A stretch of DNA of 64,000 bases from Phytoactinopolyspora halophila (GCF_003287285.1 NZ_QMIG01000013.1:1-64000), one strand, 5' to 3'. Counted from the stretch's first letter, positions 23,257-43,655 are shown. Translations and numbers: made by a program. The notes: a model not told the origin generated them from the sequence alone.

Positions 23257-24696
23257 CTAGTCGTCCGCGGCCTCGCCGACCGGGCCGTGCGTCTCTTCGG
23301 TACGGGGGATGCCCCGCTCCTCGGGAGTGCCCGGGATGAGGTTGTCGAGGATCAGCCCGAAGATGGCCGCAACCGCCATGCCGGTGCTGCCGACGGTGGT
23401 GATCACGTCACCGAGCCACTCGGCCCAGCTGATGTGGATCTCGACGCCCTCGAAGTATGCCGGCACGGAGAGGCCCATGAAGAGGATGAACCCGACGATC
23501 AGCAAGTTGCGCTGGCTAGTCATATCGGCCTGGGTGAGGTTGGACAGCCCGATGGCCGCGATGAGCCCGAACAGCGTGCAGTACAGCCCGCCCACGATGG
23601 GTGTCGGGATGGTCGCGATCACCGCGCCGAACTTGGCGACGAATCCCAGGATGATCAGCAGCCCGGCGGCGATGTAGACGACTCTCCGGCTCGCCACCTT
23701 GGTCATGGCGACCAGGCCGAGGTTCTCGGTGTAGCTGGTGGAGGCGAACCCGCCGAAGAGGCCCGTGGTGAGGCAGCCGACACCCTCGGCGCCGATGCCC
23801 CGGCTGATCTGCTTCTCCGTGGGGTGGTCCTTGCCGATGGCCCGCGAGATCGCGTGGTAGTCGCCGAACGACTCGATCATGGACGCCAGGTACCCGGCGA
23901 GGGTTGCCAGGATGAAGCCCAGTGCGAACTGCGGCCAGCCCCAGGGCAGCAGGATTCCGCCGTCGCCGATGACGAAGCTCCGGATCCATGGCGCGTCGCC
24001 GACGCTGTCGAAGCTGATGTAGGCGGGATTGTCCTCGCTGATGATCCCGGTCACGCTGATGAACAGCGCGACGAGGTAGGCGGTGAGCACCGCGAGCAGG
24101 ATCGGGAACAGCGAGAAGAACCGCACGCGCGGTGCCAGGATCAGCGCGAAGCCCAGTGACGCGACGATGGTCAGCCCGCCGATCCACCAGTTCAGCGCCG
24201 CATCCGGCGCGCCGTTCTCGAACAGCGCCAGCCCGATGAGCGCGATGACCGGGCCGATCACGACGGGACTGATGAACCGCCGGATCTTGCCGAACAGCCC
24301 GGTGTAGCCGAGGACTATCTCGAGAACGGCACCGGCGATGATCGCACCGGCGATGTACTGCATGCTCACGTCGCCACCTTGCTCGACGGTGGCGGCGATG
24401 ATGGCGAAGAACGGGCCCAGGAAGGCGAACGACACCCCCTGGATGATCGGCAACCGCGTGCCGAATCGAGCCTGGATGAACGTGGCGATGCCCGAACAGA
24501 TCATGACCGAGCTCACGAGGATCGCGAGCTGGTCGGGCGACATCTCCATGGCCGGGCCGAGGATCAGCGGCACCGCCACGGTCGCACCGAACATGGTCAG
24601 CACGTGTTGTATGCCCAGCCCGAGGCCGGCCAGCGGCTTGGGGACGTCTTCGAGTCCGTAATTCAGGTCTACCGGCTTGCTCGAGGTCGTGCTCAT
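23257..24696 (-). CDS. NCS2-family nucleobase (uracil/xanthine) permease
   Basis: Proton-coupled nucleobase transporter of 479 residues. The first helix GIQHVLTMFGATVAVPLILG is the NCS2 signature, and the substrate-site regions SMIESFGDYHAISRAIG and FASTSYTENLGLVAMTKV match uracil/xanthine carriers. About 14 membrane segments are expected. ATG 24696 is set by AGGAGGGG just upstream. Divergent from the molybdo-hydroxylase maturation genes and near pathway genes for a nucleobase, it probably imports their substrate; sequence alone does not separate uracil from xanthine. Confidence 0.9.
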   Translation of the reverse strand: MSTTSSKPVDLNYGLEDVPKPLAGLGLGIQHVLTMFGATVAVPLILGPAMEMSPDQLAILVSSVMICSGIATFIQARFGTRLPIIQGVSFAFLGPFFAIIAATVEQGGDVSMQYIAGAIIAGAVLEIVLGYTGLFGKIRRFISPVVIGPVIALIGLALFENGAPDAALNWWIGGLTIVASLGFALILAPRVRFFSLFPILLAVLTAYLVALFISVTGIISEDNPAYISFDSVGDAPWIRSFVIGDGGILLPWGWPQFALGFILATLAGYLASMIESFGDYHAISRAIGKDHPTEKQISRGIGAEGVGCLTTGLFGGFASTSYTENLGLVAMTKVASRRVVYIAAGLLIILGFVAKFGAVIATIPTPIVGGLYCTLFGLIAAIGLSNLTQADMTSQRNLLIVGFILFMGLSVPAYFEGVEIHISWAEWLGDVITTVGSTGMAVAAIFGLILDNLIPGTPEERGIPRTEETHGPVGEAADD

Positions 24697-24905: not shown

Positions 24906-25829
24906 ATGACCGACATCGTGAACCAGGCTGGCAACGCCGATCCGCCACCCGGGTACGAGGACCTCGCTTCGCCCGATGAGCTGGGGCGACGCCTGGACAC
25001 GGCGGGGTATCTGAGTGACGGCGGGCTCTCCACCGCCGCGTTCCTGGCGCTGCGGATGGGACGTCCCCTATTCGTCGAAGGCGAGGCCGGCGTCGGGAAG
25101 ACGTCGCTGGCACACGCCCTGGCCAGCGCGTTACAGGTCCCTCTCATCCGGCTGCAGTGCTACGAGGGTGTCGACGCCGCCCAGGCGTTATACGACTGGG
25201 ACTTTCCGCGGCAGTTGCTGCACCTGCGCGCGGCGGAAGCGGCCGGGATCAGCGACGTCGAGCGCCTCGAGCACGAGCTGTACGATCGGCGGTTCCTCCT
25301 GGCGCGGCCGCTGCTGCGGGCGCTGGAAGAGGCGCCGTGCGTGCTCCTGATCGACGAGATCGACCGGGCCGACGACGAATTCGAGGCGTTCCTCCTGGAG
25401 ATCCTCTCGGATTTCACCATCTCGATTCCCGAGGTCGGGACCGTGCGGGCGGACGTCCCGCCACTGGTGGTGGTCACCAGCAACCGCACCCGGGAAGTGC
25501 ACGACGCGTTGAAGCGGCGGTGTCTCTACCACTGGCTGGGCCATCCCACGATGGAACGCGAGATCGCCGTGATCCGGCGACGGTTGCCGGACGTGAGCGA
25601 GCAGCTGGCCGGCGACGTCGCCCGCATCGTGCACCGCCTGCGCGAGGCCGACCTGCTCAAACCGCCCGGCCTGGCCGAGTCGATCGACTGGGTGGCGGCG
25701 TTGTCGTCGCTGGGTGCCGTGGAGCTCGACGCCGATATTGCCGCACGCACCCTGGGCGCTGTATTGAAGTATCAGGAGGACACCGAACGTATGCGGGCGG
25801 AGGTGGCCGAGCTCGTCGGGCAGGTGTGA
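24906..25829 (+). CDS. MoxR-type AAA ATPase (CoxD-like)
   Basis: AAA+ ATPase of 307 residues in the MoxR/CoxD group. Walker A is VEGEAGVGKTSLAHALA near residue 60, Walker B is VLLIDEIDRADDEFEAFLLE near 147, and sensor 1 is VVVTSNRTREVHDALKRRC near 190. CoxD-type proteins work with a VWA partner to mature the active site of molybdo-hydroxylases such as CO dehydrogenase. Its VWA partner follows 62 bp downstream, and the enzyme subunits are encoded at 34.9-38.8 kb. Confidence 0.9.
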   Translation: MTDIVNQAGNADPPPGYEDLASPDELGRRLDTAGYLSDGGLSTAAFLALRMGRPLFVEGEAGVGKTSLAHALASALQVPLIRLQCYEGVDAAQALYDWDFPRQLLHLRAAEAAGISDVERLEHELYDRRFLLARPLLRALEEAPCVLLIDEIDRADDEFEAFLLEILSDFTISIPEVGTVRADVPPLVVVTSNRTREVHDALKRRCLYHWLGHPTMEREIAVIRRRLPDVSEQLAGDVARIVHRLREADLLKPPGLAESIDWVAALSSLGAVELDADIAARTLGAVLKYQEDTERMRAEVAELVGQV

Positions 25830-25891
25830 CGCGGGTGCGCGGGCAGCGACGAACGGGACGGACGACGATCGGCGCAGACGGGTGATGCGAG

Positions 25892-27121
25892 ATGGATACC
25901 GCGTCGGGCACGAGCGACCCCGTGTCGGGCACCAGCGACCCCGTATCGGGCACCAGCGACCCCGTATCGGGCACCAGTGACGCCGTCGATGGCGTTGTGG
26001 ACTTCGTGCACCGCCTGCGCGACGCCGGTGCCGCCGTGCCTCCCACCCGCGTGCACGCGATGGTGCAGGCCATGGGCGAGCTGGGCGGTGACTCGCTGGA
26101 CGCGGTGTACTGGTCCGGGCGTTTCACACTGTGTGCCTCCCCGGAAGACATCGAGCGCTACGATCGCGTCTTCGCGGCGTACTTTCGTGGCCAGCGGGCG
26201 CCGGCCCGGATGCGTGCGCCGGCCGAGCCGACGTACCGGCTGGTGGCGGTTCCGGCCGATCCGCCGGACGGCGCCGGGTCGGACACCGAGGAGCCGCCAC
26301 CACAGACGCTGGCCACGGCGAGCCGGATGGAGATCTTACGGCACCGCGACGTCGCCGGCCTGGGCACGGCGGAACGCGACGAGGTGCACCGGCTCATCGG
26401 CGCGCTGGCTCCGGCGGCACCGGAACGTCTCACCCGCCGGCTGCGCCGGTCGGCGTCCGGGCCGGTGGACCCGCAACGCACCATCCGGGCGATCCTGCGC
26501 CACGGCGGCGAGCCGGTCGAGCTGCGGCACCATCGCCGCAGCCGCCGGCATCGGCGCCTCGTGTTCCTCATCGACGTCAGCGGGTCCATGGCGCCGTACG
26601 CGGACACGTTCCTGCGGTTTGCGCACGCCGCGTGCCGGGCGCGTCCGGACACGGAAGTGTTCACGATGGGCACCCGGCTGACCCGGGTCACCCGGGAGCT
26701 GCGCCAGCGCGAGCCGGGAGCGGCCCTGGGGGCGGCCTCGGCGGCAATACCGGACTGGAGCGGTGGAACTCGCCTGGGTGGCGAGACGAAGGAGTTCCTC
26801 GATCGCTGGGGGCAGCGGGGCACGGCCCGGGGAGCGGTGGTGGTCGTGGCCAGCGACGGCTGGGAGCGAGGCGATCCGGGGCTGCTCGGGGCGCAGATGA
26901 AGCGGCTGCGCCGGCTGGCCCGCCGCGTGGTGTGGGTGAACCCGCACCGGGGACGCCCGGGCTACGTCCCGCGCACCGGGGGCATGCAGGCGGTCCTCCC
27001 GTACGTCGATCATCTGGTCGCGGGGCACTCGCTGGCGGCAATGGAGGATCTCGCAGGCTTGCTCGCCGCGGGAGCCCGGGCGAGCTCGGATGAGGTGGTG
27101 AGTCGATGCGTGACGTCATGA
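25892..27121 (+). CDS. VWA domain protein (CoxE-like)
   Basis: A 409-residue protein of the CoxE family that pairs with MoxR/CoxD ATPases during molybdo-hydroxylase maturation. The C-terminal VWA domain has the MIDAS residues in FLIDVSGSMAPYAD near residue 228, the threonine of WSGGTRLGGETKEF and the aspartate of VVASDGWERGDPG. The N-terminus carries four copies of SGTSDPV encoded by a 21-bp tandem repeat, so the real start might be downstream. It overlaps the XdhC gene by 16 bp. Confidence 0.88.
   Translation: MDTASGTSDPVSGTSDPVSGTSDPVSGTSDAVDGVVDFVHRLRDAGAAVPPTRVHAMVQAMGELGGDSLDAVYWSGRFTLCASPEDIERYDRVFAAYFRGQRAPARMRAPAEPTYRLVAVPADPPDGAGSDTEEPPPQTLATASRMEILRHRDVAGLGTAERDEVHRLIGALAPAAPERLTRRLRRSASGPVDPQRTIRAILRHGGEPVELRHHRRSRRHRRLVFLIDVSGSMAPYADTFLRFAHAACRARPDTEVFTMGTRLTRVTRELRQREPGAALGAASAAIPDWSGGTRLGGETKEFLDRWGQRGTARGAVVVVASDGWERGDPGLLGAQMKRLRRLARRVVWVNPHRGRPGYVPRTGGMQAVLPYVDHLVAGHSLAAMEDLAGLLAAGARASSDEVVSRCVTS
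25904..25987 (+). repeat. 21-bp tandem repeat in the CoxE-like gene
   Basis: Four head-to-tail copies of a 21-bp unit starting TCGGGCACCAGCGACCCCGT. The unit length keeps frame and encodes SGTSDPV. Copies two and three are nearly identical, a sign of recent slippage or expansion. Confidence 0.9.
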
Positions 27122-28239
27122 CAGACCTCGTTGCGGCCGTCGGGGAGGGCCGCCGGGTGGGCCTGGTGACCGTGGTCGGGACGTTCAGCTCGGCGCCCCG
27201 CCCGCCGGGCGCGTCGATGGCGGTGATCGACACCGGTGAGGCCGTGGGCAGCGTCTCCGGCGGGTGCATCGAAGGTGCGGTCTACGAGCTGGCCCGCGAG
27301 GTGATCGACGGCCGTGCGCCGACGATGCAGCGTTACGGCGTGAGCGACGACGACGCGTTCGCCGTCGGGCTGACCTGTGGCGGCACCATCGACGTGTTCG
27401 TCGAACCGGTGGATGCCGAGGTGTTTCCCGAGCTCACCGAGCTGGCCGAGAGTATCGCCGCGGCAGAGCCGGTGGCCGTCGCGACAGTAGTCTCCGGTCC
27501 CGGAGCTATCGGGTCGCATCTGGTGGTGTGGCCGGACCGGGTGGCGGGCAGCCTCGGCGGGCAGCGGCTCGACGACGCCGTCGCCGACGACGCGCGCGGA
27601 ATGCTCGACCAGGGCCGTACGGGGACACGGCGGTACGGCGCGGACGGCGAGCGGCGCAAGGACGAGCTGGAGGTGTTCGTGCAGTCCTTTGCCCCGCCAC
27701 CGCGGATGCTGGTGTTCGGCGCGATCGACTTCGCGGCCGCGGTGGTGCGGATGGGCAAGTTTCTCGGGTACCACGTGACCGTGTGTGATGCCCGGCCGGT
27801 GTTCGCCACCGAGCGCCGCTTTCCCGAGGCCGACGAGGTGGTGGTGAGCTGGCCGCATGACTATCTGGACGGTGTGGAGGTCGATGCGCGCACGGTGATC
27901 TGCGTGCTCACCCACGATCCCAAGTTCGACGTCCCGCTGCTGGAGAGCGCCCTGCGCACCCCGGCCGCCTACATCGGGGTGATGGGCTCGCGGCGGACCC
28001 ACGCCGACCGGTTGGAGCGGCTGCGCGAGCGTGGCGTGAGCGAGGCGGATCTGGAGCGCATGTTCTCGCCGGTGGGCCTCGACATCGGGGCGCGCACTCC
28101 GGAGGAGACCGCGGTCTCGATCGCGGCCGAGATCATCGCCACGCGGTGGGGCGGCACCGGGCGTTCGCTGCGCGACCTGTCCGGGCCGATTCACCACGAT
28201 CGGCTGGCCGAGTCCGAGCCTGCCGGAGACGGGCCGTGA
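27106..28239 (+). CDS. XdhC/CoxI-family molybdenum cofactor insertion protein
   Basis: XdhC-type chaperone of 377 residues; family members bind sulfurated molybdenum cofactor and deliver it to xanthine dehydrogenase-like enzymes. The N-terminal domain has VTVVGTFSSAPRPPGASMAV and GSVSGGCIEGAVYELA near residue 47. The C-terminal Rossmann domain has MLVFGAIDFAAAVVRMGKFL and GVMGSRRTHADRLERL near 300. ATG 27106 has GAGGTGGTGAG upstream; ATG 27118, which overlaps the VWA stop as ATGA, is an alternative. It overlaps the next gene by 4 bp. Confidence 0.92.
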   Translation: MRDVMTDLVAAVGEGRRVGLVTVVGTFSSAPRPPGASMAVIDTGEAVGSVSGGCIEGAVYELAREVIDGRAPTMQRYGVSDDDAFAVGLTCGGTIDVFVEPVDAEVFPELTELAESIAAAEPVAVATVVSGPGAIGSHLVVWPDRVAGSLGGQRLDDAVADDARGMLDQGRTGTRRYGADGERRKDELEVFVQSFAPPPRMLVFGAIDFAAAVVRMGKFLGYHVTVCDARPVFATERRFPEADEVVVSWPHDYLDGVEVDARTVICVLTHDPKFDVPLLESALRTPAAYIGVMGSRRTHADRLERLRERGVSEADLERMFSPVGLDIGARTPEETAVSIAAEIIATRWGGTGRSLRDLSGPIHHDRLAESEPAGDGP

Positions 28240-28874
28240 TCGCCGCGGCGGCCGGCCTGGTTCTCGCGGCGGGGGAGGGCCGTCGCTTCGGCCAGCCCAA
28301 GGCGGTGGTCGAGGTCGAGGGCGAGCGGCTGGTGGACCGGGCCGTGCGATTGCTGGCCGATGGTGGCTGCCATCCGGTGATCGTGGTCGATGGTGCGGTG
28401 CGGCTGGAGGCGATGGAGTCCGCGGTGTCGGCGCCGTCGGCGCCGTCGGCGGAGCCGACGCAGCCTAGCCGGAGGCTGGACGTTCCAACCGTGCGCGTCG
28501 TGCACAACCCCCGATGGCCGGACGGCATGGGAACGTCTCTGCACGTCGGCCTGGACGCACTACGCGGTGCGGATGTCGGCGCCGTCGTGGTGGCCCTGGT
28601 CGATCAGCCCTGGCTGAGCCCGGAGGCGGTACGCCGGTTGCGCGCCGCGCGGGACGGGGGCGCGTTCGTCGCGGTGCCCATCTATGGTGGCCAGCGGGGA
28701 AACCCCGTGTTGCTGGGCCGGGAGGTGTGGGACGACGTGCTCGAGCTCGCCAAGGGCGACGTGGGAGCGCGCGCGTACATGAAGGCCCATCCCGAACTCG
28801 TCACGGCGGTCCCGTGCGACGGGATCGGCAGCCCCGACGACATCGACTACCCAGACGACCTCACTTTCCGATGA
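28236..28874 (+). CDS. MocA-like molybdopterin cytidylyltransferase
   Basis: MobA/MocA-type nucleotidyltransferase of 212 residues. The N-terminal LVLAAGEGRRFGQPKAVVEV carries the nucleotide-binding loop, and VVVALVDQPWLSPEAVRRLR the metal-binding DQP motif near residue 125. Next to XdhC it most likely makes the cytosine dinucleotide cofactor used by this molybdo-hydroxylase. The GTG start overlaps the XdhC stop (GTGA). There is an alanine/serine-proline insertion near residue 65. The stop codon lies inside a hairpin arm. Confidence 0.88.
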   Translation: MIAAAAGLVLAAGEGRRFGQPKAVVEVEGERLVDRAVRLLADGGCHPVIVVDGAVRLEAMESAVSAPSAPSAEPTQPSRRLDVPTVRVVHNPRWPDGMGTSLHVGLDALRGADVGAVVVALVDQPWLSPEAVRRLRAARDGGAFVAVPIYGGQRGNPVLLGREVWDDVLELAKGDVGARAYMKAHPELVTAVPCDGIGSPDDIDYPDDLTFR

Positions 28875-28923
28875 TCATGAACACTCACCCCTCAAATTCG
28901 AGGGGTGAGTGTTCATGATCATC
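28870..28923. terminator. Perfect hairpin holding both convergent stop codons
   Basis: The arms 28870-28893 and 28900-28923 pair over 24 bp (ATGATCATGAACACTCACCC on the left) with a 6-nt loop. The TGA of the MocA-like gene (28872-28874) and the TGA of the DUF1116 gene on the other strand (28922-28924) both fall in the arms. Confidence 0.88.
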
Positions 28924-30334
28924 AGGAGGGGAGGGGAGACTGGGCGGCGAGCGCGGACAGGGCGGACGTGAAGCACTCGACCGGTGGCTTGACCAGCCCG
29001 GCCCCCACTTGCCCGGTGCCCGCCACCTTGCCGGCCATACCGGTGTTGATTTGCGGCAGGATCCCCGTTCGCACTACCCGGGTGACATCGATGCCGGTGG
29101 GCGCGCCGCGGAACTCCAGGATGGGGTACGCATAGGCGGGATTCTCGCCGAGCGTGATCTCGTACATCAGCTGCGAGGTGTATAGGGCGTCGGGAACGGT
29201 GCCACCGACGAAGCGCACGATGGCCGGCGCCGATGCCATGGCGAACCCGCCGATGCCCATGGTCTCGCAGATGGTCGAATCCCCGATGTCGGGATTGGCG
29301 TCATCGGGCCCGAACGAGCCGAGGAACAGCCCATCGGGCGTGTTCGCCGGTCCGGTGAACCACTGCCCGCCGGTGCCCGAGACCTGGATCCCGAAGTCGG
29401 TGCCGTTGCGGGCCATGACGGTGACCACGGAGGAACCCGCGATGCCGGACGCGGCGGCACTTTGCAGCTTGCCGGCGGGCATCACCAGGTTGAGGAAGAA
29501 GTGGTCGTTGCCACCGATGAACCGGGCCACCTCGGACACGCGCGAGCTGGGGGCGCCGCTGTCGATCAGATCGGGCATGAGCTCGCGCAAGAACATGAGC
29601 GTGCCCGCCCGGTTACGGTTGTGCCCCTCGTCACCCATCTGCACCATCTGCGAGATGATGCCCTTGATGTCGATGCTGCCCCGCTGGCGCACGGCCGTCT
29701 GCAGCACCGGGCCGAGTACCTCGCCCATCCAGCGCAGGCGGTCGATGACCTCGGGCGCGTAGGCGCCGTAGCGCAAGACCTTGCCCAGACCCTCGTTGAG
29801 CGTGCACCACGACGTCTGGCCGTGGGTCTCGTCGCGCAGTTCGAACATCCACATCGACGGCGAGACGAGCCCGGCCATGGGGCCGACGCCGCCGCGATCG
29901 TGGCAGGGCTGCAGGGCGATGCCGTCTCCCGCGGCGAGCTTGGCCTCGGCGTCGTCGGGCGTGTCAGCCAGCCCTTCGAACAGCATGGCGCCGATCAGCG
30001 CGCCGCGCATCGGCCCGGAGGCGCGGTACCAGCTCAGTGGCGGCCCGGCGTGCAGGAACTCGCCCGGCTGCAGGCCGAGCACCTCGCGGGCCGGGCGCAC
30101 GTCGACCAGCTCGGCGCTGGCCGCCAGCATGCGTTCGATGGCCCGCGCGTTCGCCGCAGCGCGCCGCTCGTCTCCCATGACCCGCGCCAGGTCCTCGTCG
30201 GTTCCGTCAAGCGGCGGGCGCCACTCGACCCGGTGGGTCGCCACGGCCTGCGCGGCGAGGGCGTCGTCGAACAGCTCGACGCCGGCGGTGACGACGGACG
30301 GTTCGGTGCTGATCAGATCGTGCAGGGTGCTCAT
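28922..30334 (-). CDS. DUF1116 protein, AllG (YlbE)-like subunit
   Basis: DUF1116 protein of 470 residues. In E. coli the DUF1116 protein YlbE (AllG) acts with FdrA (AllF) and YlbF (AllH) as an oxamate carbamoyltransferase, which phosphorolyses oxalurate to oxamate and carbamoyl phosphate. Conserved stretches visible are LQPCHDRGGVGPMAGLVSPS near residue 140, GDEGHNRNRAGTLMFLRELM near 240, and VMARNGTDFGIQVSG near 305. GGGAGGAC before ATG 30334 fixes the start. It overlaps the FdrA gene by 4 bp. Here the substrate may be a longer ureido acid (see findings). Confidence 0.88.
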   Translation of the reverse strand: MSTLHDLISTEPSVVTAGVELFDDALAAQAVATHRVEWRPPLDGTDEDLARVMGDERRAAANARAIERMLAASAELVDVRPAREVLGLQPGEFLHAGPPLSWYRASGPMRGALIGAMLFEGLADTPDDAEAKLAAGDGIALQPCHDRGGVGPMAGLVSPSMWMFELRDETHGQTSWCTLNEGLGKVLRYGAYAPEVIDRLRWMGEVLGPVLQTAVRQRGSIDIKGIISQMVQMGDEGHNRNRAGTLMFLRELMPDLIDSGAPSSRVSEVARFIGGNDHFFLNLVMPAGKLQSAAASGIAGSSVVTVMARNGTDFGIQVSGTGGQWFTGPANTPDGLFLGSFGPDDANPDIGDSTICETMGIGGFAMASAPAIVRFVGGTVPDALYTSQLMYEITLGENPAYAYPILEFRGAPTGIDVTRVVRTGILPQINTGMAGKVAGTGQVGAGLVKPPVECFTSALSALAAQSPLPS

Positions 30335-31836
30335 GGCTGTCCTCCCGCGAGCTCGACGGCCGCGCGCGCGGCGGCGGCATTGGACAGGTAGACCGACGCG
30401 CCGGCCTCGGCGAGTCTCGAACCCTGCCCGTTCAGGTCCTGCGGATCGTCGCTGGTACCGGTGAGCGACACGACGACGTCGAGCTGCCGGCCGTCCGCGC
30501 GGGCCCGGTTCCGGGCGTCGATGATGGCCGGTGCGAGCTCGCTGGCCGGGTCGGGATGGGCGGCGTGCCCGAGGATCACGTCGAGGAGGATCACCCCACA
30601 TGCGGGGTCGGCAGCCTCCACGACCATCCGCTCGGCCCGCAGCGAGCCGTCGATCATCGGATGCGGCCGGCCCCGGGTGAGCTCGTCGTCGCCGAAGTCG
30701 ATCATCGCGTGCCCGTCGAGGCGGCCGGTGTGCAGGTCGCCGTCGATGGCCCACTCGGGACGCAGCGGGATGTTCGACCTGATCGGGCCCAGCGCCGAGC
30801 TGGCGATCACCATGGCTTCGTCGCAGAGCGTGCCGCCGGCGAACAGGCCGCGGAGGTAGCCGCCGGTTCCCGTCTCCGGTGCCGATGGCGTCCACGAGCC
30901 GGGCTCGGTCCACTCCGCCCCGGCGGCCTCCACGACGGACCGGGCAGCCATCGTGAGATCTGGCTGGTCTTCACCCATCAGCGCGAACAGGACGGGCTTG
31001 CCGAGCGCGTCGGCGTGGGCGCGGACCCGCTTGGCGACCTCGGGGTCCGGTGGCTTGCTCACCACGGCGATGACCTCGGTGGTGTCGTCGGCCGCGAGCA
31101 TGTCGAGTGCCGTGATGGTGGAGATGCCCCCGACGGCATCGCTGAGATCGCGCCCGCCGACGCCGAGGCAGTGGCTGATTCCGACCCCGGCCGCGTCGAC
31201 CAGGCTCATGACGTGCTGGGCACCGGTACCGGAGGCCGCGACCAGCCCGACGGGGCCAGGGCGCACGACGTTGGCGAAGCCGAATCCCACGCCCCCGATG
31301 ACGGCCGTGCCGCAGTCGGGACCCATGACGAGCAGGTCCCGCTGGCTCGCGAGCTGCTTGAGCCGGATCTCCTGCTCCAGCGGGACGTTGTCGGAGAACA
31401 CGATGACCGGCAGCTCGTGGTCCAGCGCATCCACGGCGTCGACGAAGGCGGAGGTGCCCGGGGTGGACACGAACGCGACGGTGGGCGGAGTTCCGCTCGC
31501 GTTGCGCGCGGCCGTCCCGATGGTGTGCGCGGCGGGGCCGTTCCCGGAACTCACCGCCGCGGGCCGCGCGCGTTCGGTCAGTGCGGCGTCGACCCGCGCC
31601 TGCGCCCGGCTCAGCGCGTCGTCGTCGGCGGCGTCGAGCGCGACCAGCAGATCGTTGGGACCGGCGGACTCGGGTGCGTGGAATCCCATTCCGGCCAGCA
31701 GGTCCAGGTTGAGCTCGGTGGCCATCGCGACGAGCGCGGCGTTGACACCGGGCTCGTCGTTGACGGTTCGGCTCACCTGCATGAGAGTCACGGAATCGTG
31801 ATACGCGCCAGGCCGGACGTCGAGATGTCGGGTCAT
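30331..31836 (-). CDS. fdrA: FdrA-like (AllF) acyl-CoA synthetase-fold subunit
   Basis: FdrA-family protein of 501 residues, related in fold to the succinyl-CoA synthetase alpha chain. It begins MTRHLDVRPGAYHDSVTLMQ, the usual FdrA start. Later landmarks are IRLKQLASQRDLLVMGPDCG and GLVAASGTGAQHVMSLVDAAG near residues 150-220, then a C-terminal domain with VILLDVILGHAAHPDP. In E. coli FdrA is one of three subunits of oxamate carbamoyltransferase. GAGG before ATG 31836 supports the start; the DUF2877 gene ends only 10 bp upstream, so the three form one operon. Confidence 0.88.
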   Translation of the reverse strand: MTRHLDVRPGAYHDSVTLMQVSRTVNDEPGVNAALVAMATELNLDLLAGMGFHAPESAGPNDLLVALDAADDDALSRAQARVDAALTERARPAAVSSGNGPAAHTIGTAARNASGTPPTVAFVSTPGTSAFVDAVDALDHELPVIVFSDNVPLEQEIRLKQLASQRDLLVMGPDCGTAVIGGVGFGFANVVRPGPVGLVAASGTGAQHVMSLVDAAGVGISHCLGVGGRDLSDAVGGISTITALDMLAADDTTEVIAVVSKPPDPEVAKRVRAHADALGKPVLFALMGEDQPDLTMAARSVVEAAGAEWTEPGSWTPSAPETGTGGYLRGLFAGGTLCDEAMVIASSALGPIRSNIPLRPEWAIDGDLHTGRLDGHAMIDFGDDELTRGRPHPMIDGSLRAERMVVEAADPACGVILLDVILGHAAHPDPASELAPAIIDARNRARADGRQLDVVVSLTGTSDDPQDLNGQGSRLAEAGASVYLSNAAAARAAVELAGGQP

Positions 31837-31846
31837 GTATACCTCG

Positions 31847-32869
31847 TCAGGAACTCCGATGCGGGAACAGGGGATCGAGGGCGCACAACGCCCCGGTGTA
31901 GAGCGCTGCGCCCGAGGTGTGCCCGACGGCGAGCAGCCGCCGGTGCGCCGCGGCTATGTCGCCGCCGGGCGAGTCGAGGGCCGTGAGCAGCGCCGTGAAC
32001 TGCGGGACGCACTGCCCGCGGGCCGCGTACGCGAGCAGCCCGGCGGAGACGGCGGAGGTTCGGGAATGCGGATGAGCGGCGGCGACGGCGCTGGCCAGCT
32101 GGTCGGCGGTGACCCGGCGCGGATCGTCACGCCGGGCCACCGTGGCCTTTTCGAGGGCGCGCATCGTGACCAGGGCGCCCGCCAGGATGTCGTCGCCGGC
32201 GGGAGTGAGCCCGGGCCCGAGACCGAGCAGCGCGTCGACGGCGCGATCCAGGGACTGATCATGGCCGTCGTGCTCGCGTGCCGGTTCGCCGCCGGCCGTC
32301 CCGTCGTCGGTGGATGGCGTGTCTCCACCGCGCAGGGCGTGCGCGAGGAGGTGAGCGCCCGCGAGGACCGGTGAATCGAGGGAGGATCGGGGACACGGGG
32401 GAGCGTGCGTCACGCAGCGCCGGGGGTCGGAGATGGCAGGGGAGCGCGCGGGCCACCACCGGGTGGGGGTGAGTACGAGATCGCGCAGGCGGACCCGCCC
32501 GCCGCCGACGGAGACGGGCGCGCCGACAGCCACGGACGGCAGCGCACCGGACGGTACGATGGAACACGGCAACCGGACGGCGTCGCGGGTGCCGAAGCAC
32601 ACCAGCTCGGGCTCCGCGCCGTCGATCAGCGCGGCGACCATGTGCCGGGTACTGGCGACGACGGTGCCGCTGCGGTGGGGACCCCGGAGGAGGAAACGCA
32701 CGCCCGTGCTGGCGGCGGCCGGCAGCAGCCGATCGACCGCTGCCGGCCGTGGAGGGACAGCCCTCAGCGAGCGCCGGGCGGTGCCACGGGTGCTGTGAGC
32801 CACACCCGGTGCCGTGGAGGCCCCGGGCGCGACGGCCTTGGATGCGCCGATGGCCGTGGATGCCGGCAC
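31847..32869 (-). CDS. DUF2877 protein, AllH (YlbF)-like subunit
   Basis: DUF2877 protein of about 340 residues, the third partner of FdrA and DUF1116 in oxamate carbamoyltransferase. The diagnostic region is LLGLGPGLTPAGDDILAGAL near residue 230, followed by HPHSRTSAVSAGLL. The Ala/Pro-rich N-terminal 60 residues are poorly conserved. GTG 32869 is chosen because GGAGGTG lies five bases upstream; frames further 5' run antisense through the PucR gene. It is first in the divergent three-gene operon. Confidence 0.85.
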   Translation of the reverse strand: MPASTAIGASKAVAPGASTAPGVAHSTRGTARRSLRAVPPRPAAVDRLLPAAASTGVRFLLRGPHRSGTVVASTRHMVAALIDGAEPELVCFGTRDAVRLPCSIVPSGALPSVAVGAPVSVGGGRVRLRDLVLTPTRWWPARSPAISDPRRCVTHAPPCPRSSLDSPVLAGAHLLAHALRGGDTPSTDDGTAGGEPAREHDGHDQSLDRAVDALLGLGPGLTPAGDDILAGALVTMRALEKATVARRDDPRRVTADQLASAVAAAHPHSRTSAVSAGLLAYAARGQCVPQFTALLTALDSPGGDIAAAHRRLLAVGHTSGAALYTGALCALDPLFPHRSS

Positions 32870-32953: not shown

Positions 32954-34669
32954 ATGGAAAAACTTGCCAACGATCGGGCGCTGGGTTCGCCGGAATTGAC
33001 AGCGGGGGGTGGCATGTCGCGGCCGTCGTCCGCAGTTCCGGGCCTGACGGTGCGCAAGGCGATCGAGATGCCCGCCCTGCAAGGCGCCCGGCTGCTGGCG
33101 GGTGCTGGAGGGCTGGACGGGATCGTGCAGCGGGCCAACGTGATGGAGGTTCCGGACATCCTCCCGTGGGTGAAGCCGCACGAGCTGTTGCTGACCACGG
33201 GCTACCCGCTGCGCAACACTCCGCAAGGGCTGCCCGCTCTGGTCACCGATCTGGCGGGGCACGGCCTGGCGGCGCTGGGGGTGAAACTGCACCGCTACCT
33301 GGACTACCTGCCGGAGCAGATGATCGACGAGGCGGAGCGGCTCGATCTTCCACTGCTGCTCCTTCCCGACGCGGTCGGCTTCGACGACATCATCAACCAG
33401 GTGCTGACCGGGGTGCTCAACAGCCAGGCGGCCGTGCTCGAACGCTCGTGGGAGATCCATCACGCGCTGCTGTCCGTGGTTCTGGAGGGCGGCGGGCTGC
33501 ACGAGGTCGCCGACAAGACGTCTACCGTGCTGGACGCCCCGATCTTCGTGACCACACCGGACGGGCGAGTGGTCGCCGAGGGCGGCGATCCGGACGATCT
33601 GGCCAGCTGGCGATCCAGCGCGTGCTTCGATGAGACCGGCCGGTTCCGGACCGAGTACGAACCGGGCGGCGTGCACGACCACTCCGAGGTTCCGGGTTCT
33701 CATGCCGTCGTCCCGGTCGTGGCCGGCAAGGTGGATCACGGGCGGATCGTGGCGTTCGTTTCGCACCGCGAGCTCGACGACAGTGACGTGAACGTCCTGG
33801 AGCGAGCCGCCACGGTGGCGGCACTGGCGGTGACCAAGCAGCTCGCCATCACCGCGGTCGAGGGCAAGTACCGGGGTGATTTCCTGCGGGACGTGCTGGC
33901 CGGGCGGGCCGGCGGCCGCGACCATGTCGTGGCGCACTGCGAGCTGCTCGGGTGGGACATCGATCGCGAGCTCGTGGTCGTGGTGGCCGAGCTGGACCCC
34001 GAAGAGGGCACCGAGCCGGGCCCGGACCTCGAACTGCGCCCGGTGCAGGAGCGTTTCAGCACGGCGTGGCAGACCGTCGTCGCCCGGCACGATCGCCAGG
34101 CGCCGGTCGTGGGTTTCGCGCAGGAGGTGGTGGCGTTGCTGCCGGTACCACCGGGCGGCGACGTCAGCGAGCTGGTGCACGACGTGGTGCGCCAGGTCTC
34201 CGGCGACGGCGGCGGTGGCCGGCGCCAGTTCTCCACCGGGGTCAGCCGCGCCGTCAACGACCCGGAGCGGTTCCCGGGCGCGTACGAGCAGGCACGCCGG
34301 GCGGTCCACGTGGGCCGCCAGGTGAACGGGTTCGGGTCGGTGGCCTATTTCGACTCGCTGCGCTCGTTCCGTCTCATCAGCCTGGTTCAAGACCGCGACG
34401 AGCTGCGCGGGTTCGTGCGCGAGACGCTGCACGAGCTGGCGGTCGAGGACGATCCGGAGATGGCCGACCTGCGGCACACGCTCAAGGTGTTGCTCGACAC
34501 GAACCTCAACGTCGCCGAGGCTGCGCGCACCCTGCACTTTCACTACAACACGCTGCGCTACCGGATCGGCAAGCTGGAACGGATCCTGGGACCGTTCACC
34601 ACCGACCCGGAGTTGCGTCTCGACCTGGCCCTGGCGTTGAAGGTCTTGCAGATGCGGGGGTTGCGATGA
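32954..34669 (+). CDS. PucR-family transcriptional regulator
   Basis: PucR-type regulator of up to 571 residues. The N-terminal PucR domain includes LTVRKAIEMPALQGARLLAG and PDILPWVKPHELLLTTGYPL (residues about 30-90). A central sensory domain follows, and the C-terminal helix-turn-helix is LNVAEAARTLHFHYNTLRYR near residue 520. PucR proteins control purine and related nitrogen catabolism in Gram-positive bacteria. ATG 32954 has only a leaderless-type signal; ATG 33014 (MSRPSSAVPGL) is preceded by GGGGGGTGG and is a reasonable alternative. It probably governs the divergent trio and the molybdo-hydroxylase operon. Confidence 0.9.
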   Translation: MEKLANDRALGSPELTAGGGMSRPSSAVPGLTVRKAIEMPALQGARLLAGAGGLDGIVQRANVMEVPDILPWVKPHELLLTTGYPLRNTPQGLPALVTDLAGHGLAALGVKLHRYLDYLPEQMIDEAERLDLPLLLLPDAVGFDDIINQVLTGVLNSQAAVLERSWEIHHALLSVVLEGGGLHEVADKTSTVLDAPIFVTTPDGRVVAEGGDPDDLASWRSSACFDETGRFRTEYEPGGVHDHSEVPGSHAVVPVVAGKVDHGRIVAFVSHRELDDSDVNVLERAATVAALAVTKQLAITAVEGKYRGDFLRDVLAGRAGGRDHVVAHCELLGWDIDRELVVVVAELDPEEGTEPGPDLELRPVQERFSTAWQTVVARHDRQAPVVGFAQEVVALLPVPPGGDVSELVHDVVRQVSGDGGGGRRQFSTGVSRAVNDPERFPGAYEQARRAVHVGRQVNGFGSVAYFDSLRSFRLISLVQDRDELRGFVRETLHELAVEDDPEMADLRHTLKVLLDTNLNVAEAARTLHFHYNTLRYRIGKLERILGPFTTDPELRLDLALALKVLQMRGLR

Positions 34670-34740
34670 GGGAAAGCCCGATGACGGGGAGTTCGGGACC
34701 CGTGCTCGTCGCCAGGCACATCGCCACGCAGGACAGAGAT

Positions 34741-34864
34741 TGCCGACGTCGAAGGCGTCCCGTCGGCAGATCGTGCCCATGCGGCGCCACGTCCGCATGC
34801 ATAGTTTGCCTGCATCAGAAATGTCAGGGTGTGCGTTGGCGTGGCGATTCCGGTCGCCACGCCA
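34741..34864. promoter_or_regulatory. Inverted repeats upstream of the molybdo-hydroxylase operon
   Basis: The 253-bp gap 34670-34922 holds two strong inverted repeats. TGCCGACG (34741-34748) pairs with CGTCGGCA (34761-34768). TGGCGTGGCGA (34837-34847) pairs with TCGCCACGCCA (34854-34864), an 11-bp perfect arm with a 6-bp centre, about 60 bp before the first gene. They are candidate operators or a leader hairpin. Confidence 0.5.
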
Positions 34865-34922
34865 CCGACCACCACACTGGCCGATACGTGAACCAACCCA
34901 CGTTCCGGAAGAGGACGACACC

Positions 34923-35831
34923 GTGAAGCCATCGGGGTTCACCTACCACCGCCCGCAGACGGTGGACGAGGCGCTCGACGTGCTCGGCCGGGTCGGCCCC
35001 GAGGGCAAGGTCCTGGCCGGTGGGCAGAGCCTGGTTCCGATGATGAACATGCGCTTGGCCGCCCCCGCCGAATTGATCGACATCAACCGGTTGACGGCGC
35101 TCGACTACGTACAGGTGGAAGGCGACGGCGCGGGAGCGGCGGTCCGGGTGGGAGCCACCGCCCGGCACACCACCGTGGAACGCGACACGGCGGCGTTCAC
35201 CGTCCTGCCGCTGCTGCGCCAGGCGTTGAGCCACGTGGCCCACTCGACGATCCGCAACCAGGGCACCACCGTGGGCAGCCTCGTCCACGCCGATCCGGCG
35301 GGGGAGATGACCGCGGTACTCGCGCTCCTGGACGGCTCGGTCGAGGTGCGCAGTGCACACGGGGCCCGGTGCGTCAGCGCCAGCGACTTCTTCGTCGGCC
35401 CCCTGGAATCCTGCCTCGAACCGGACGAGCTCGCGACCTCGGCGGTCTTTCCCGTGCCCGAAGGCCGCAGCGGTTCCGCCTGGCTGGAAGTGGCCCGCCG
35501 GCACGGCGATTACGCGGTGTGCGGTGTCGGCGCCGTGCTGCGCCTCGACGGCGACGCGCGGGTCGTGGCCGCCCGTACCGGCTACATCTCGGTGGACGCC
35601 ACGCCCGTCGTCCTCGATCTGGGTGAGGTCATCGGCCGGGTACCGTACGACACCGCCGACTGGGACGCCGCCGGGCGCTACGCGGCAGCCCAGTTGCAGC
35701 CCGAGGGCGACATCCACGCGAGCGCGGCATACCGTCGCCAGCTGGCCGGCGTGCTGACCAGCCGGGCGCTGAGCGCGGCTGCCCGCCACGCCCTCGCCCG
35801 CCACGACATCATGACGGAGGTCCCGCAGTGA
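34923..35831 (+). CDS. Molybdo-hydroxylase FAD subunit (CoxM-like)
   Basis: FAD-binding medium subunit of a xanthine dehydrogenase/CO dehydrogenase-type enzyme, 302 residues. The first FAD loop is LAGGQSLVPMMNMRLAAPAE near residue 35-54, and the second is TTVGSLVHADPAGEMTAVLA near 116-135. It passes electrons from the Fe-S subunit to an acceptor. GTG 34923 follows GGAAGAGGA at workable spacing and is the first residue of the usual CoxM N-terminus (KPSGFTYHRPQT). It overlaps the small subunit gene by 4 bp. Confidence 0.93.
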   Translation: MKPSGFTYHRPQTVDEALDVLGRVGPEGKVLAGGQSLVPMMNMRLAAPAELIDINRLTALDYVQVEGDGAGAAVRVGATARHTTVERDTAAFTVLPLLRQALSHVAHSTIRNQGTTVGSLVHADPAGEMTAVLALLDGSVEVRSAHGARCVSASDFFVGPLESCLEPDELATSAVFPVPEGRSGSAWLEVARRHGDYAVCGVGAVLRLDGDARVVAARTGYISVDATPVVLDLGEVIGRVPYDTADWDAAGRYAAAQLQPEGDIHASAAYRRQLAGVLTSRALSAAARHALARHDIMTEVPQ

Positions 35832-36370
35832 GCGACACGTCTGCAGCAGAGCCACGGCACGAGGTGAACCTCGTGGTCAACGGCGTGCCGCGGTCGGCAA
35901 CCGTGCCGGCGCGCCGCTTGCTGTCGGATTTCCTGCGCCATGACCTCGGCCTCACCGGAACGCACACGGGTTGCGAGCACGGCGTGTGCGGGGCGTGCAC
36001 GGTGCTGGTCACCGGGGCCGGGCGGTCGGACGATGAAGGGGTGAGCGGGCGTCCGATCCGCTCCTGCTTGCAATTCGCGGTCATGTACGACGGCGCGGAG
36101 ATCACCACGGTGGAAGGATGCACCCGACCGGACGGTGAACTCGGCCCGGTGCAGCAAGCCTTTCAGGACTGTCACGGATTGCAATGCGGCTTCTGCACCC
36201 CCGGGTTCGTCACCACCATCACCGCGTATCTGGAGGAGAACCCGTCGCCGAGCGAGGAGGAGGCCCGCGAGGCGATCTCGGGGAACCTGTGCCGCTGCAC
36301 GGGGTACCAGAACATCGTGGCGTCGGTGTTGCGCGCTGCCGAGCTGAAGAGCGAGGAGGTGGGCGGGTGA
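35828..36370 (+). CDS. Molybdo-hydroxylase 2Fe-2S subunit (CoxS-like)
   Basis: Small subunit of 180 residues with both [2Fe-2S] sites. The plant-ferredoxin-like site is CEHGVCGACTVLV near residue 50. The all-helical C-terminal site is CGFCTPGF near 120, completed by CRCTGY near 157. It moves electrons from the molybdenum centre to FAD. It overlaps both neighbours by 4 bp (GTGA), so the three subunits are made in step. Confidence 0.95.
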   Translation: MSDTSAAEPRHEVNLVVNGVPRSATVPARRLLSDFLRHDLGLTGTHTGCEHGVCGACTVLVTGAGRSDDEGVSGRPIRSCLQFAVMYDGAEITTVEGCTRPDGELGPVQQAFQDCHGLQCGFCTPGFVTTITAYLEENPSPSEEEAREAISGNLCRCTGYQNIVASVLRAAELKSEEVGG

Positions 36371-38778
36371 CCACCCGGAGCTTGGGGGAGCCGGTCGCCC
36401 GGCGGGAGGATCCGAGGCTGCTGTCCGGCCAGGGTCGCTACGTCGACGACATCGGCACGGGGGCGCTGGAGGTCGCGTTCGTCCGCAGCCCGCATGCGCA
36501 CGCGCGGATCGTCGACATCGATGTCACCGGCGCGCTCGACGTCGACGGGATCGTGGCAATCTACACCCACGAAGATCTGCCCGGCCGGGTCGGAGAACCG
36601 CTGCCGCTGCTCATCCCGCACGACGCGCTCACGCATGGGCGCACGCCGTACCCGCTGGCCAAAGACGAGGTCAACCACGTCGGCGAACCGATCGTGATGG
36701 TCGTGGCCACCGACCGGTACGTCGCCGAGGACGCGTGCGATCGCATCCAGGTGGAGTTCGACTTCCTGCCGCCGGTCGTCGGGATCGAGGTGGCTCGCGA
36801 CGCCGAGCACCTGGTCCACGACGATGTTCCCGGCAACGTCGCCGCCCGCCTGGTGCAAGAATCCGGGGATGCGCGCGCGGCCGTGGCCCAGGCGCCACAC
36901 GTGCTGGAACTGGATCTGGAGATCGAGCGCAGCGCGTCCATGCCGATGGAGGGCAAGGCCGTCTTCGCGCGGTGGGACGCCGACGACACCAGCTTGCGGG
37001 TCTACACCTCCACCCAGGCATCTACGTCGGTGCGCGCCGCCGTCGCCGCCAAGCTGGAGTTGCCCGCCGACCGTGTCGAGGTCGTCGCCCCGGATGTCGG
37101 AGGCGGGTTCGGTGTGAAGATCGTGCACCCGTGGCCCGAGGAGATCCTGGTGCCGTGGGCGGCGGTGACGCTCGGCCGGGAAGTCAAGTGGACCGAGGAT
37201 CGCCGCGAGCACTTCGTCTCCAGCGCGCACGAGCGGGGCCAGCTGCAACACGTCAAGGTCGGGTTCGACAGCGAGGGCCGGCTGCACGGGCTCGACGTCA
37301 CCATCTGGCACGACAACGGCGCGTACACGCCCTACGGGATCATCGTGCCGATCATCACCACCACGCAGCTGCTCGGGCCGTACAAGCCGGGCGCGTACCG
37401 GGCGGAGTGCTTCAGCCTCTACACCAACACGGTGATCGTGACGCCGTACCGCGGTGCGGGCCGCCCGCAGGGGTGCTTCGCGATGGAACGGACGATGGAC
37501 GCCATCGCCGACCATCTCGGTCTCGACCGCGCGGTGGTGCGCGAACGCAACTTCATCCGGCCGGACGAGATGCCCTACGACCACGGGCTCGTCTTTCAGG
37601 ACGGCCGTCCGCTCATCTACGACTCCGGCGATTACCCGGCCAGCCTGGACAAGCTGAAGAAGCTCATCGGCTGGGACGAGTTCGACGACTACCGCGCGGC
37701 GGCGCGGGCCGAGGGCCGCCAGGTAGGTATCGGCATGGCCTGCTACGTCGAGGGGACCGGTGTCGGGCCGTACGAGGGCGGGTTCGTCAAGGTGGAGACC
37801 GACGGGAGCGTCGTCGTCGCCACCGGGCTGACCACCCAGGGCCAGGGCCACCAGACGGCGTTCGCGCAGATCGTCGCGGACGAGCTGGGCGTGCCGGTGG
37901 AAAAGGTGACGGTGACCACCGGAGACACCCGCCGATTCAAGTACGCCGTCGGTACCTTCGCGTCACGGGCCGCCGTGATGAGTGGTAACGCGGTCGCGCT
38001 GGCCGCACGCAACGTCCGCGAGAAGGCACTGCGAATCGCCGGGGAAGCGCTGGAGGCCGACCCGCGCGACCTGGAGATCGTCGACGGCATCGTGCAGGTC
38101 AAGGGGACGCCGGGCGCCACGGTGCCGCTGTCCACCGTCGCCGTGCTGTCCAACCCGCTGCGCTACGCCTTCGACGAGGAAACCCAGCGCGCCACCCAGT
38201 TCGCCACACCCGGAGATCCGGAGAAGCCCCCGGTGGCCGAGGACGACGAGCCCGGGCTGGAAGGCACCGACTACTACTCGCCGGCCCGGTCCACGTTCGC
38301 GAACGGTATGCACGCCGCGATCGTCGAGATCGACCCGGACACCGCGGAGATATCGATCCTGCGCTATTGCGTGGTGCACGATTGCGGCACCCTGATCAAC
38401 CCGCGGATCGTCGAAGGCCAGATCCACGGCGGTGTCGCCCAGGGTGTGGCCGGAGCGCTGTACGAGCGCATGGTGTACGACGACGCCGGGCAGCTGCTCA
38501 ACGCGTCGTTCATGGACTTCCTGATGCCCTACGCGACGGAGGTGCCGCGCATCGAGGCCGATCACCTGGAGACGCCATCGCCGCTCAACCCGCTGGGTAT
38601 CAAGGGTGCCGGCGAGGCCGGGGTGATTCCGGGTGCCTCCGTGCTCGCATCGGCGATCGAGGACGCCGAAGGCTTCCGGATTTCGCGGATGCCGATCTCT
38701 CCGTCCGAACTGTACGAACTACGTCAACGGCACGAACGACGCGAGCAGAACACGACGAACACGAAGGACTCCCGCTAA
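36367..38778 (+). CDS. Molybdo-hydroxylase large subunit (CoxL-like, form II)
   Basis: Molybdenum-binding large subunit of 803 residues. The active-site loop reads PYRGAGR (in VTPYRGAGRPQGCF near residue 365), the form II pattern, not the AYXCSFR of true CO dehydrogenase. The base-catalyst glutamate lies in IKGAGEAGVIPGA near residue 745, and TTQGQGHQTAFAQI near 490 is a cofactor-contact segment. The enzyme should hydroxylate a heterocycle; with the barbiturase-like gene nearby, uracil or thymine to barbiturates is the favoured guess, with xanthine as an alternative. It is followed by CoxG with a TAATG overlap. Confidence 0.92.
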   Translation: MTTRSLGEPVARREDPRLLSGQGRYVDDIGTGALEVAFVRSPHAHARIVDIDVTGALDVDGIVAIYTHEDLPGRVGEPLPLLIPHDALTHGRTPYPLAKDEVNHVGEPIVMVVATDRYVAEDACDRIQVEFDFLPPVVGIEVARDAEHLVHDDVPGNVAARLVQESGDARAAVAQAPHVLELDLEIERSASMPMEGKAVFARWDADDTSLRVYTSTQASTSVRAAVAAKLELPADRVEVVAPDVGGGFGVKIVHPWPEEILVPWAAVTLGREVKWTEDRREHFVSSAHERGQLQHVKVGFDSEGRLHGLDVTIWHDNGAYTPYGIIVPIITTTQLLGPYKPGAYRAECFSLYTNTVIVTPYRGAGRPQGCFAMERTMDAIADHLGLDRAVVRERNFIRPDEMPYDHGLVFQDGRPLIYDSGDYPASLDKLKKLIGWDEFDDYRAAARAEGRQVGIGMACYVEGTGVGPYEGGFVKVETDGSVVVATGLTTQGQGHQTAFAQIVADELGVPVEKVTVTTGDTRRFKYAVGTFASRAAVMSGNAVALAARNVREKALRIAGEALEADPRDLEIVDGIVQVKGTPGATVPLSTVAVLSNPLRYAFDEETQRATQFATPGDPEKPPVAEDDEPGLEGTDYYSPARSTFANGMHAAIVEIDPDTAEISILRYCVVHDCGTLINPRIVEGQIHGGVAQGVAGALYERMVYDDAGQLLNASFMDFLMPYATEVPRIEADHLETPSPLNPLGIKGAGEAGVIPGASVLASAIEDAEGFRISRMPISPSELYELRQRHERREQNTTNTKDSR

Positions 38779-39509
38779 TGAAGGTCACCGGTTCCGCTGC
38801 CTTGCATGCTCCACGCGATCAGGTGTGGCAGGCGCTCAACGACCCGGCCGTGCTGGTGCGCACCATCCCCGGGTGCCAGCGCCTCGAAGAGACCGGCCCG
38901 GACGCGTACCGCATGACGGTGTACGCGGGAGTCGGATCGGTGAAGGGCACCTACGCCGGGAACGTGCAGCTGACCGACCAGGAGGAGCCGTCGTCGTTCG
39001 TCTTGAAGGCCCAGGGTTCGGGCGCGCCAGGCACGGTGAGCGCGGATGTGAAGGTGACGCTCAGCGAGAACGGTGACGGCGTGACGACGCTCGACTACGA
39101 CGCGGACGCCATCGTCGGCGGGATGATCGGCGGCGTGGGACAGCGGATGCTGACCGGCGTGGCGAAGAAGACCGCCGGAGAGTTCTTCTCCGCCGTGGAT
39201 GACGTCCTCACCGGTAGGGCCGCCACAGGGGCCGGTGCCGGCACGTCGGGGGCCGAGGGGGCCGGTCCTGCGGCTCCGGCTGACCAGGCCGTTCCGGCCG
39301 CGTCCGGCGTGCCGGGTATGCCGGCCGGCGCCGCGTCGTCGGCGGGGAGCCGCCCGGGCGTGTACGAGGCGCCGGCCACGCCCGCGTCGCAGGGCACTGG
39401 CCTGGCGGGTGTGCTCGGAGGCGATTTCGGGCGCGGCGTGCTGGCGGGTGCGGTGATCGCGCTGGCTGGCGTCGTCGTGGGCGGCTGGGCTGCCGGGCGA
39501 CGGCGATGA
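38778..39509 (+). CDS. CoxG-like membrane-anchored SRPBCC protein
   Basis: CoxG family protein of 243 residues. Residues 1-145 form the START/SRPBCC domain (MKVTGSAALHAPRDQVWQAL, then VLVRTIPGCQRLEETGPDAY). A long Ala/Gly/Pro linker follows, and the C-terminal membrane segment is VLAGAVIALAGVVVGGWAAG near 222-241. CoxG is thought to attach the molybdo-hydroxylase to the cytoplasmic membrane for electron transfer to the respiratory chain. ATG 38778 shares a base with the CoxL stop. Confidence 0.92.
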   Translation: MKVTGSAALHAPRDQVWQALNDPAVLVRTIPGCQRLEETGPDAYRMTVYAGVGSVKGTYAGNVQLTDQEEPSSFVLKAQGSGAPGTVSADVKVTLSENGDGVTTLDYDADAIVGGMIGGVGQRMLTGVAKKTAGEFFSAVDDVLTGRAATGAGAGTSGAEGAGPAAPADQAVPAASGVPGMPAGAASSAGSRPGVYEAPATPASQGTGLAGVLGGDFGRGVLAGAVIALAGVVVGGWAAGRRR

Positions 39510-42200: not shown

Positions 42201-42221
42201 GGGGGAGAGGTAGGGTACAAA

Positions 42222-42250: not shown

Positions 42251-42260
42251 GATGAGTTGC

Positions 42261-43637: not shown

Positions 43638-43655
43638 TCCGACGTTTGCGCCTCA

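Follow-up and report, generated by a model that had tools for sequence, protein, structure and literature searches.

Introduction

On what substrate does a carbamoyltransferase of the AllFGH type act when no genes for allantoin breakdown surround it? This question is raised by a stretch of 64,000 nucleotides from Phytoactinopolyspora halophila (GCF_003287285.1, NZ_QMIG01000013.1:1-64000; hereafter the window), in which homologs of AllH (DUF2877), AllF (FdrA), and AllG (DUF1116) are encoded by a trio of genes near a ring-opening amidohydrolase and a carbamate kinase. Purified E. coli AllFGH interconverts oxalurate plus inorganic phosphate (Pi) and oxamate plus carbamoyl phosphate (PMC11326118). 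In the oxidative pathway of pyrimidine breakdown, as cited in PMC3758960, barbiturase is followed by ureidomalonase, which yields malonate and urea. The classical studies of barbiturase drew on Rhodococcus erythropolis JCM 3132, and no paper joining barbiturase with FdrA or AllFGH was found in a search of open-licence papers.

Here, we present evidence that the trio is very probably an AllFGH-type carbamoyltransferase that serves oxidative pyrimidine breakdown by acting on ureidomalonate. This compound (3-oxo-3-ureidopropanoate), which barbiturase forms, is the same acylurea as oxalurate with one CH2 added. In the pathway that we propose, a molybdenum hydroxylase would convert uracil to barbiturate, and barbiturase would open the ring to give ureidomalonate, which AllFGH would cleave with Pi to malonamate and carbamoyl phosphate. 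Carbamate kinase would then turn carbamoyl phosphate into ATP, NH3, and CO2, an amidase resembling malonamidase E2 would hydrolyze malonamate to malonate and NH3, and a CoA transferase and a carboxyltransferase would pass malonate to acetyl-CoA. Phosphorolysis by the trio would replace the hydrolytic ureidomalonase step of R. erythropolis; whereas hydrolysis would waste the acylurea bond, phosphorolysis coupled to carbamate kinase would gain one ATP per ring. We infer each catalytic step from gene content, conservation, co-occurrence, phylogeny, and gene replacement.

An AllFGH-type operon with a linked carbamate kinase

An earlier note, made from the sequence of the window alone, had described the trio as a tight operon divergent from a PucR gene, and its coordinates, the 10-bp gap between AllH and AllF, and the 4-bp overlap between AllF and AllG are all exact (Table 1). 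The ring-opening amidohydrolase and carbamate kinase that it placed in view are likewise present, and no allantoin, allantoate, or ureidoglycolate genes, which it had found missing, appeared among the window genes scanned by profile. AllG and AllF are 47% and 39% identical to their E. coli counterparts, and AllH is 39% identical over 107 aa. The genome has a single copy of AllG, and the named genomes with the most similar AllG belong to Phytoactinopolyspora and Jiangella. An AlphaFold model of AllG (predicted local distance difference test, pLDDT, 88) has a structural match to 3clq only, with a template modeling (TM) score of 0.85-0.95. The AllF homolog matches the solved structure of FdrA (PDB 3dmy), and its score to the NCBIfam FdrA model PRK06091, 404 bits, lies slightly below the cut-off of 433; no AllFGH complex was found among the solved structures searched. 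Homologs of AllF, AllG, and AllH that are encoded together and linked to a catabolic carbamate kinase are, judged by sequence, members of the AllFGH-type structural family.

An older annotation of FdrA as an acyl-CoA synthetase, which here would activate malonate or malonamate, draws on its Pfam Ligase_CoA and CoA-binding domains. We regard this as extremely unlikely, since E. coli AllFGH, when purified, proved to be a carbamoyltransferase (PMC11326118), a CoA transferase is already part of the cluster, and this CoA transferase is kept, with FdrA absent, in the clusters of Rhodococcus (by which we mean genomes with a barbiturase 99-100% identical to PDB 5hwe).

The ring-opening enzyme is a predicted barbiturase

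The ring-opening amidohydrolase scored 674 bits against PDB 5hwe ("Barbiturase"), to which it is 82% identical over its full length, and none of its scores to cyanuric acid hydrolases exceeded 320 bits. Arg188 marks cyanuric acid hydrolases and is lacking in barbiturases, for which glutamine is given at this position (PMC4051656). Both the window enzyme and 5hwe carry Asn in this column, unlike the glutamine written there, and the catalytic Lys and Ser columns are conserved. By these sequence characters the ring-opening enzyme is a true barbiturase. It also exceeds the NCBIfam cyanuric acid hydrolase model (476 bits, cut-off 360), so automatic annotation could mislabel such a barbiturase.

That score, together with the pairing of a real cyanuric acid hydrolase with a trio on enterobacterial plasmids, might suggest a cyanuric acid hydrolase in the window, with carboxybiuret or biuret as the substrate of the trio. 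We give this alternative hardly any credence, because the score to 5hwe is twice that to any cyanuric acid hydrolase, Asn replaces Arg188, and the malonamidase-like gene, the CoA transferase, and the carboxyltransferase would be useless for cyanurate.

Enzymes of the AtzD family in Nocardia were considered as barbiturases and rejected, being 34-46% identical with no trio nearby. In Phytoactinopolyspora endophytica (G297:C1:430503-431631) and Phycicoccus sp. HDW14 (G305:C1:2318029-2319107) the barbiturase is split into two matches, by decay or by sequencing error.

The trio co-occurs with barbiturase

Among 296 evenly drawn genomes of Actinomycetota, 36 encode AllG and 18 a member of the AtzD family, and 14 encode both, where 2.2 would be expected. 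When the Asn/Arg signature is applied, these 14 are exactly the carriers of true barbiturase; AllG is missing from the four other AtzD-family carriers, whose enzymes have Arg or do not match the motif. Fisher tests for co-occurrence with AllG gave 2.6e-11 (AtzD family, 14 shared genomes) and 1e-14, in counts that ignore relatedness. Of the 14 shared genomes, 11 carry AllG and barbiturase on a single contig, separated by 6-45 kb.

A scan of named genomes gave 80 loci whose AllG shares at least 62% identity with that of the window, and at none of the 80 did E. coli-type allantoin genes stand beside the trio. The AtzD-family profile PF09663 was present in all 45 named genomes searched (AllG at least 63% identical), and every one of the 30 PF09663 proteins read from them bears the barbiturase signature. 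Relatives of other families have a compact order of barbiturase, NCS2 permease, carbamate kinase, AllH, AllF, AllG, and molybdenum hydroxylase, which is collinear in several of them, for instance at loci L055-L057, L062, and L063.

AllG and AllF of barbiturase clusters form separate clades

Of the 70 AllG proteins placed in a tree, the 40 from a barbiturase context group as one clade (support 100/99), to which neither E. coli AllG and YahG nor the plasmid sequences adjoining cyanuric acid or biuret hydrolases belong. Relations outside the barbiturase clade are unsure, since some branches of the outgroup are long. The AllF tree splits in the same way, with 29 barbiturase-context sequences in one clade (100/100). 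A sister AllG clade (L070-L077) is found with HyuAB and a molybdenum hydroxylase and no barbiturase; at L072, L076, and L077 the sister clade of AllG and AllF lies in clusters that also have an amidase. The positions D55, A105, S106, A267, P333, R422, and G435 of AllG are specific to the barbiturase clade: position 105 is Ala here and Met in 13 of 13 others compared, and position 435 is Gly here and His in all others. The smaller residues at these two positions would suit a longer substrate. Polar residues that are invariant across AllG lineages are retained in the window protein.

In these trees, which the earlier note had proposed, the trio does not cluster with the proven oxalurate enzymes. 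Phylogeny, co-occurrence, and gene replacement together support that note's suggestion of a carbamoyltransferase whose substrate is not oxalurate. Our best reading narrows the substrate to ureidomalonate, which is not an N-carbamoyl amino acid but an N-carbamoyl amide, or acylurea.

Could the trio nevertheless be an ordinary oxamate carbamoyltransferase for purine-derived oxalurate that lies near pyrimidine genes by chance? The identity of AllG (47%) and AllF (39%) to the E. coli enzyme speaks for this, as does the capacity of the genome to degrade urate and allantoin. The full allantoin pathway elsewhere that the earlier note had considered is there in part, from urate to allantoate on contig C25 (uricase, HIU hydrolase, OHCU decarboxylase, and allantoinase) plus allantoicase on C12, but this route needs no oxalurate: allantoicase gives ureidoglycolate and urea. 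The only AllC-like protein in the genome reaches 218 bits where the cut-off is 598, none of the five Ldh_2 (AllD-family) proteins exceeds 34% identity to E. coli AllD, and no AllC, AllD, or AllE was found in the window or at the trio loci of named relatives. Rather than the marks of an oxalurate-specific enzyme, the trio has separate AllG and AllF clades and no oxalurate-forming neighbor genes, and it follows barbiturase across many families. An oxalurate enzyme placed here by chance is thus very unlikely, although the trio may have a side role on oxalurate.

A putative malonamate amidase slot and gene replacement in Rhodococcus

If the trio makes malonamate, an amidase is needed to complete the breakdown. 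Among solved structures, the amidase encoded after CoxG in the window is nearest to malonamidase E2 (253 bits, 46% identity; next family, 170 bits), which converts malonamate to malonate and ammonia (PMC8393822). It shares with that enzyme the catalytic Lys and two Ser motifs and the signature GTQTxGSxxRPA, in place of which GTDxxGSxRxPA is found in sister-clade amidases and in a second amidase of Rhodococcus. Many trio relatives encode a malonamidase-like amidase after CoxG, and others, Embleya and Phytoactinopolyspora limicola among them, have an unrelated nitrilase-fold hydrolase in this slot. The slot is empty in Rhodococcus, where HyuA comes directly after CoxG. That two unrelated amide hydrolases swap at one slot and vanish with the trio is as a malonamate step predicts.

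Barbiturase clusters of Rhodococcus lack the trio, and keep HyuA, HyuB, CoxG, the molybdenum hydroxylase, NCS2 permease, PucR, CoA transferase, and carboxyltransferase. AllG of the barbiturase clade was found in none of 20 trio-less barbiturase genomes of the Rhodococcus family, only two of which have AllG paralogs of other clades. A full-length carbamate kinase is encoded by 13 of 14 trio genomes and by one of 17 trio-less genomes; G503, a member of the same family as the trio-less genomes, has both trio and kinase. In the trio-less Rhodococcus group a distinct amidase-signature enzyme adjoins barbiturase (L294:17687-19225, and also L297, L302, and L305). This enzyme is 76-98% conserved within the group, has no close homolog in trio loci, and is a candidate for the ureidomalonase gene product.

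These clusters bear on the reading in which the malonamidase-like amidase, or its nitrilase-fold replacement, is itself a ureidomalonase that forms malonate and urea, with the trio serving another ureide. A ureidomalonase activity is known in R. erythropolis (cited in PMC3758960), and an amidase-signature gene adjoins its barbiturase. The window amidase, however, resembles malonamidase E2 most closely and carries the same motif, and the Rhodococcus enzyme belongs to another subfamily (29-36% identity). Moreover, the trio and carbamate kinase, which are gained and lost together with the amidase slot, would be left with no substrate, and HyuAB, which occur with and without the trio, could not supply one. 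We therefore consider a ureidomalonase in this slot improbable, though less so than the other alternatives, and retain ureidomalonate as the substrate predicted for the trio.

Several observations weigh against this assignment. In the window about 22 kb separate the carbamate kinase from the trio, though the two are adjacent in relatives, and in the draft genome G279, which has the trio, no carbamate kinase was found. Some trio genomes show neither a malonamidase-like nor a nitrilase-like gene in the stretch examined. In G542, which lacks the trio, the Rhodococcus-type amidase was not found in the 20 kb examined. Finally, the sister clade has a molybdenum hydroxylase and no barbiturase, so linkage to this hydroxylase alone is no proof of substrate.

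Genes of the surrounding cluster

Table 1. Genes of the catabolic cluster in the window, with positions counted from its first nucleotide
Feature	Position	Strand	Evidence and remarks
NCS2 nucleobase permease	23257-24696	-	Pfam Xan_ur_permease, 288 bits; homolog adjoins barbiturase in relatives
Molybdenum hydroxylase maturation genes (MoxR ATPase, CoxE VWA, XdhC, MobA-like)	24906-28874	+	Pfam
AllG homolog (DUF1116), putative ureidomalonate carbamoyltransferase subunit	28922-30334	-	470 aa; Pfam AllG, 314 bits (cut-off 27)
AllF/FdrA homolog	30331-31836	-	501 aa; Pfam Ligase_CoA, 111 bits; NCBIfam PRK06091 FdrA
AllH homolog (DUF2877)	31847-32869	-	340 aa, start codon uncertain; Pfam AllH, 75 bits (cut-off 25)
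PucR-family regulator	32954-34669	+	Divergent from trio; Pfam PucR, GGDEF_2, HTH_30
Molybdenum hydroxylase, candidate uracil/thymine dehydrogenase	34740-38778	+	Pfam; NF040766, 1554 bits
FAD subunit	34740-35831	+	
2Fe-2S subunit	35828-36370	+	
Mo-cofactor subunit	36367-38778	+	
CoxG-like protein	38775-39509	+	Pfam COXG
Amidase-signature hydrolase, candidate malonamate amidohydrolase	39506-40837	+	Best solved match malonamidase E2
Cytosine-deaminase-like amidohydrolase	40871-42103	+	NCBIfam cytosine deaminase, 231 bits, below cut-off
HyuA	47138-49243	+	Pfam; caprolactamase-like, below cut-off
HyuB	49240-51144	+	Pfam; caprolactamase-like, below cut-off
Beta-carbonic anhydrase	51157-51885	-	Pfam Pro_CA
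CoA transferase, family III	52007-53185	+	Pfam, NCBIfam
Fused carboxyltransferase	53268-54764	+	Pfam, NCBIfam
Carbamate kinase	54998-55936	+	PRK12352, 321 bits (cut-off 266); TIGR00746, 333 bits (cut-off 358); 39% identical to E. coli AllK
Barbiturase	55958-57169	+	82% identical to PDB 5hwe

The molybdenum hydroxylase is conserved beside the trio in most relatives, and with barbiturase. Its Mo-cofactor subunit scores 1554 bits against the NCBIfam model "CODH_aero_grp5", yet it has PYRGAGRP instead of AYxCSFR, which we take to be the copper-binding motif of form I carbon monoxide (CO) dehydrogenase. A subunit with this motif that travels with barbiturase is probably a pyrimidine hydroxylase misnamed as a CO dehydrogenase. 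The CoA transferase and carboxyltransferase are conserved alongside barbiturase in both Rhodococcus and trio genomes and are candidates for the conversion of malonate, via malonyl-CoA, to acetyl-CoA and CO2. The cytosine-deaminase-like amidohydrolase is a possible feeder enzyme, converting cytosine to uracil.

Between that gene and HyuA (42180-46918) lie genes for a DUF234 ATPase, a response regulator, a histidine kinase, and a VWA protein, with no evident link to the pathway. HyuA and HyuB accompany barbiturase with or without the trio, the trio-less Rhodococcus clusters included, and have no place in the pathway as drawn.

Discussion

The system proposed here has the same three subunits, operon form, and carbamate kinase partner as E. 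coli AllFGH with AllK, and phosphorolysis of an acylurea is proposed for it too. It differs from the E. coli system in that its AllF and AllG form a separate clade and that barbiturase, molybdenum hydroxylase, and a malonamidase-like amidase stand in place of AllCDE. Its predicted substrate is longer by one CH2, and the amide that it forms is predicted to be hydrolyzed further; for E. coli, PMC3364942 describes oxamate as a dead end. With the oxidative pyrimidine pathway of R. erythropolis it shares the 82% identical barbiturase and the same molybdenum hydroxylase, HyuAB, CoA transferase, carboxyltransferase, and PucR, but the trio, carbamate kinase, and putative malonamate amidase are found instead of the ureidomalonase step. 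Malonamidase E2 itself was described for nitrogen-fixing symbionts (PMC8393822), whereas the window amidase sits in a pyrimidine cluster.

A further likeness is found in a plasmid operon of enterobacteria, where a ring-opening enzyme of the same family accompanies a permease, the trio, and carbamate kinase, in the order cyanuric acid hydrolase, NCS2 permease, DUF2877, FdrA, DUF1116, carbamate kinase. The plasmid ring-opening enzyme, unlike that of the window, has the diagnostic Arg of cyanuric acid hydrolases, and the plasmid AllG and AllF fall in another clade. This operon is carried by resistance plasmids of enterobacteria and Aeromonas (L232, L312, and L314), some with KPC. An IncF plasmid of E. 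coli (L234:6822-14032) encodes a cysteine hydrolase resembling biuret hydrolase, followed by DUF2877, FdrA, DUF1116, carbamate kinase, and a cytosine permease.

E. coli YahEFG-YahI-YahJ is a further set of the trio type, and in ammonia oxidizers that have no allantoin genes, AllFGHK lie beside biuret hydrolase and have been read as a sign of oxalurate use (PMC12625717). An acylurea or ureide is common to these gene sets, which suggests a portable phosphorolysis module. On balance, we lean toward the view that AllFGH with carbamate kinase is a general module for the phosphorolysis of acylureas (R-CO-NH-CO-NH2) that conserves ATP, the upstream hydrolase differing with each substrate. Under this view the pairings would be allantoin enzymes with oxalurate, barbiturase with ureidomalonate, cyanuric acid hydrolase with carboxybiuret or biuret, and biuret hydrolase with allophanate. 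The barbiturate, oxalurate, and cyanurate/biuret sets belong to separate AllF and AllG lineages.

For trios labeled in databases as oxamate carbamoyltransferase or acyl-CoA synthetase, this analysis proposes a substrate, partners, and a product. An AllFGH annotation in organisms that have no allantoin genes, such as the ammonia oxidizers (PMC12625717), need not mean oxalurate, and a "group 5 aerobic CO dehydrogenase" in clusters of this kind may be a pyrimidine hydroxylase. If the assignment is true, actinobacteria such as P. halophila would possess a pathway known since the 1950s in a new version that conserves energy.

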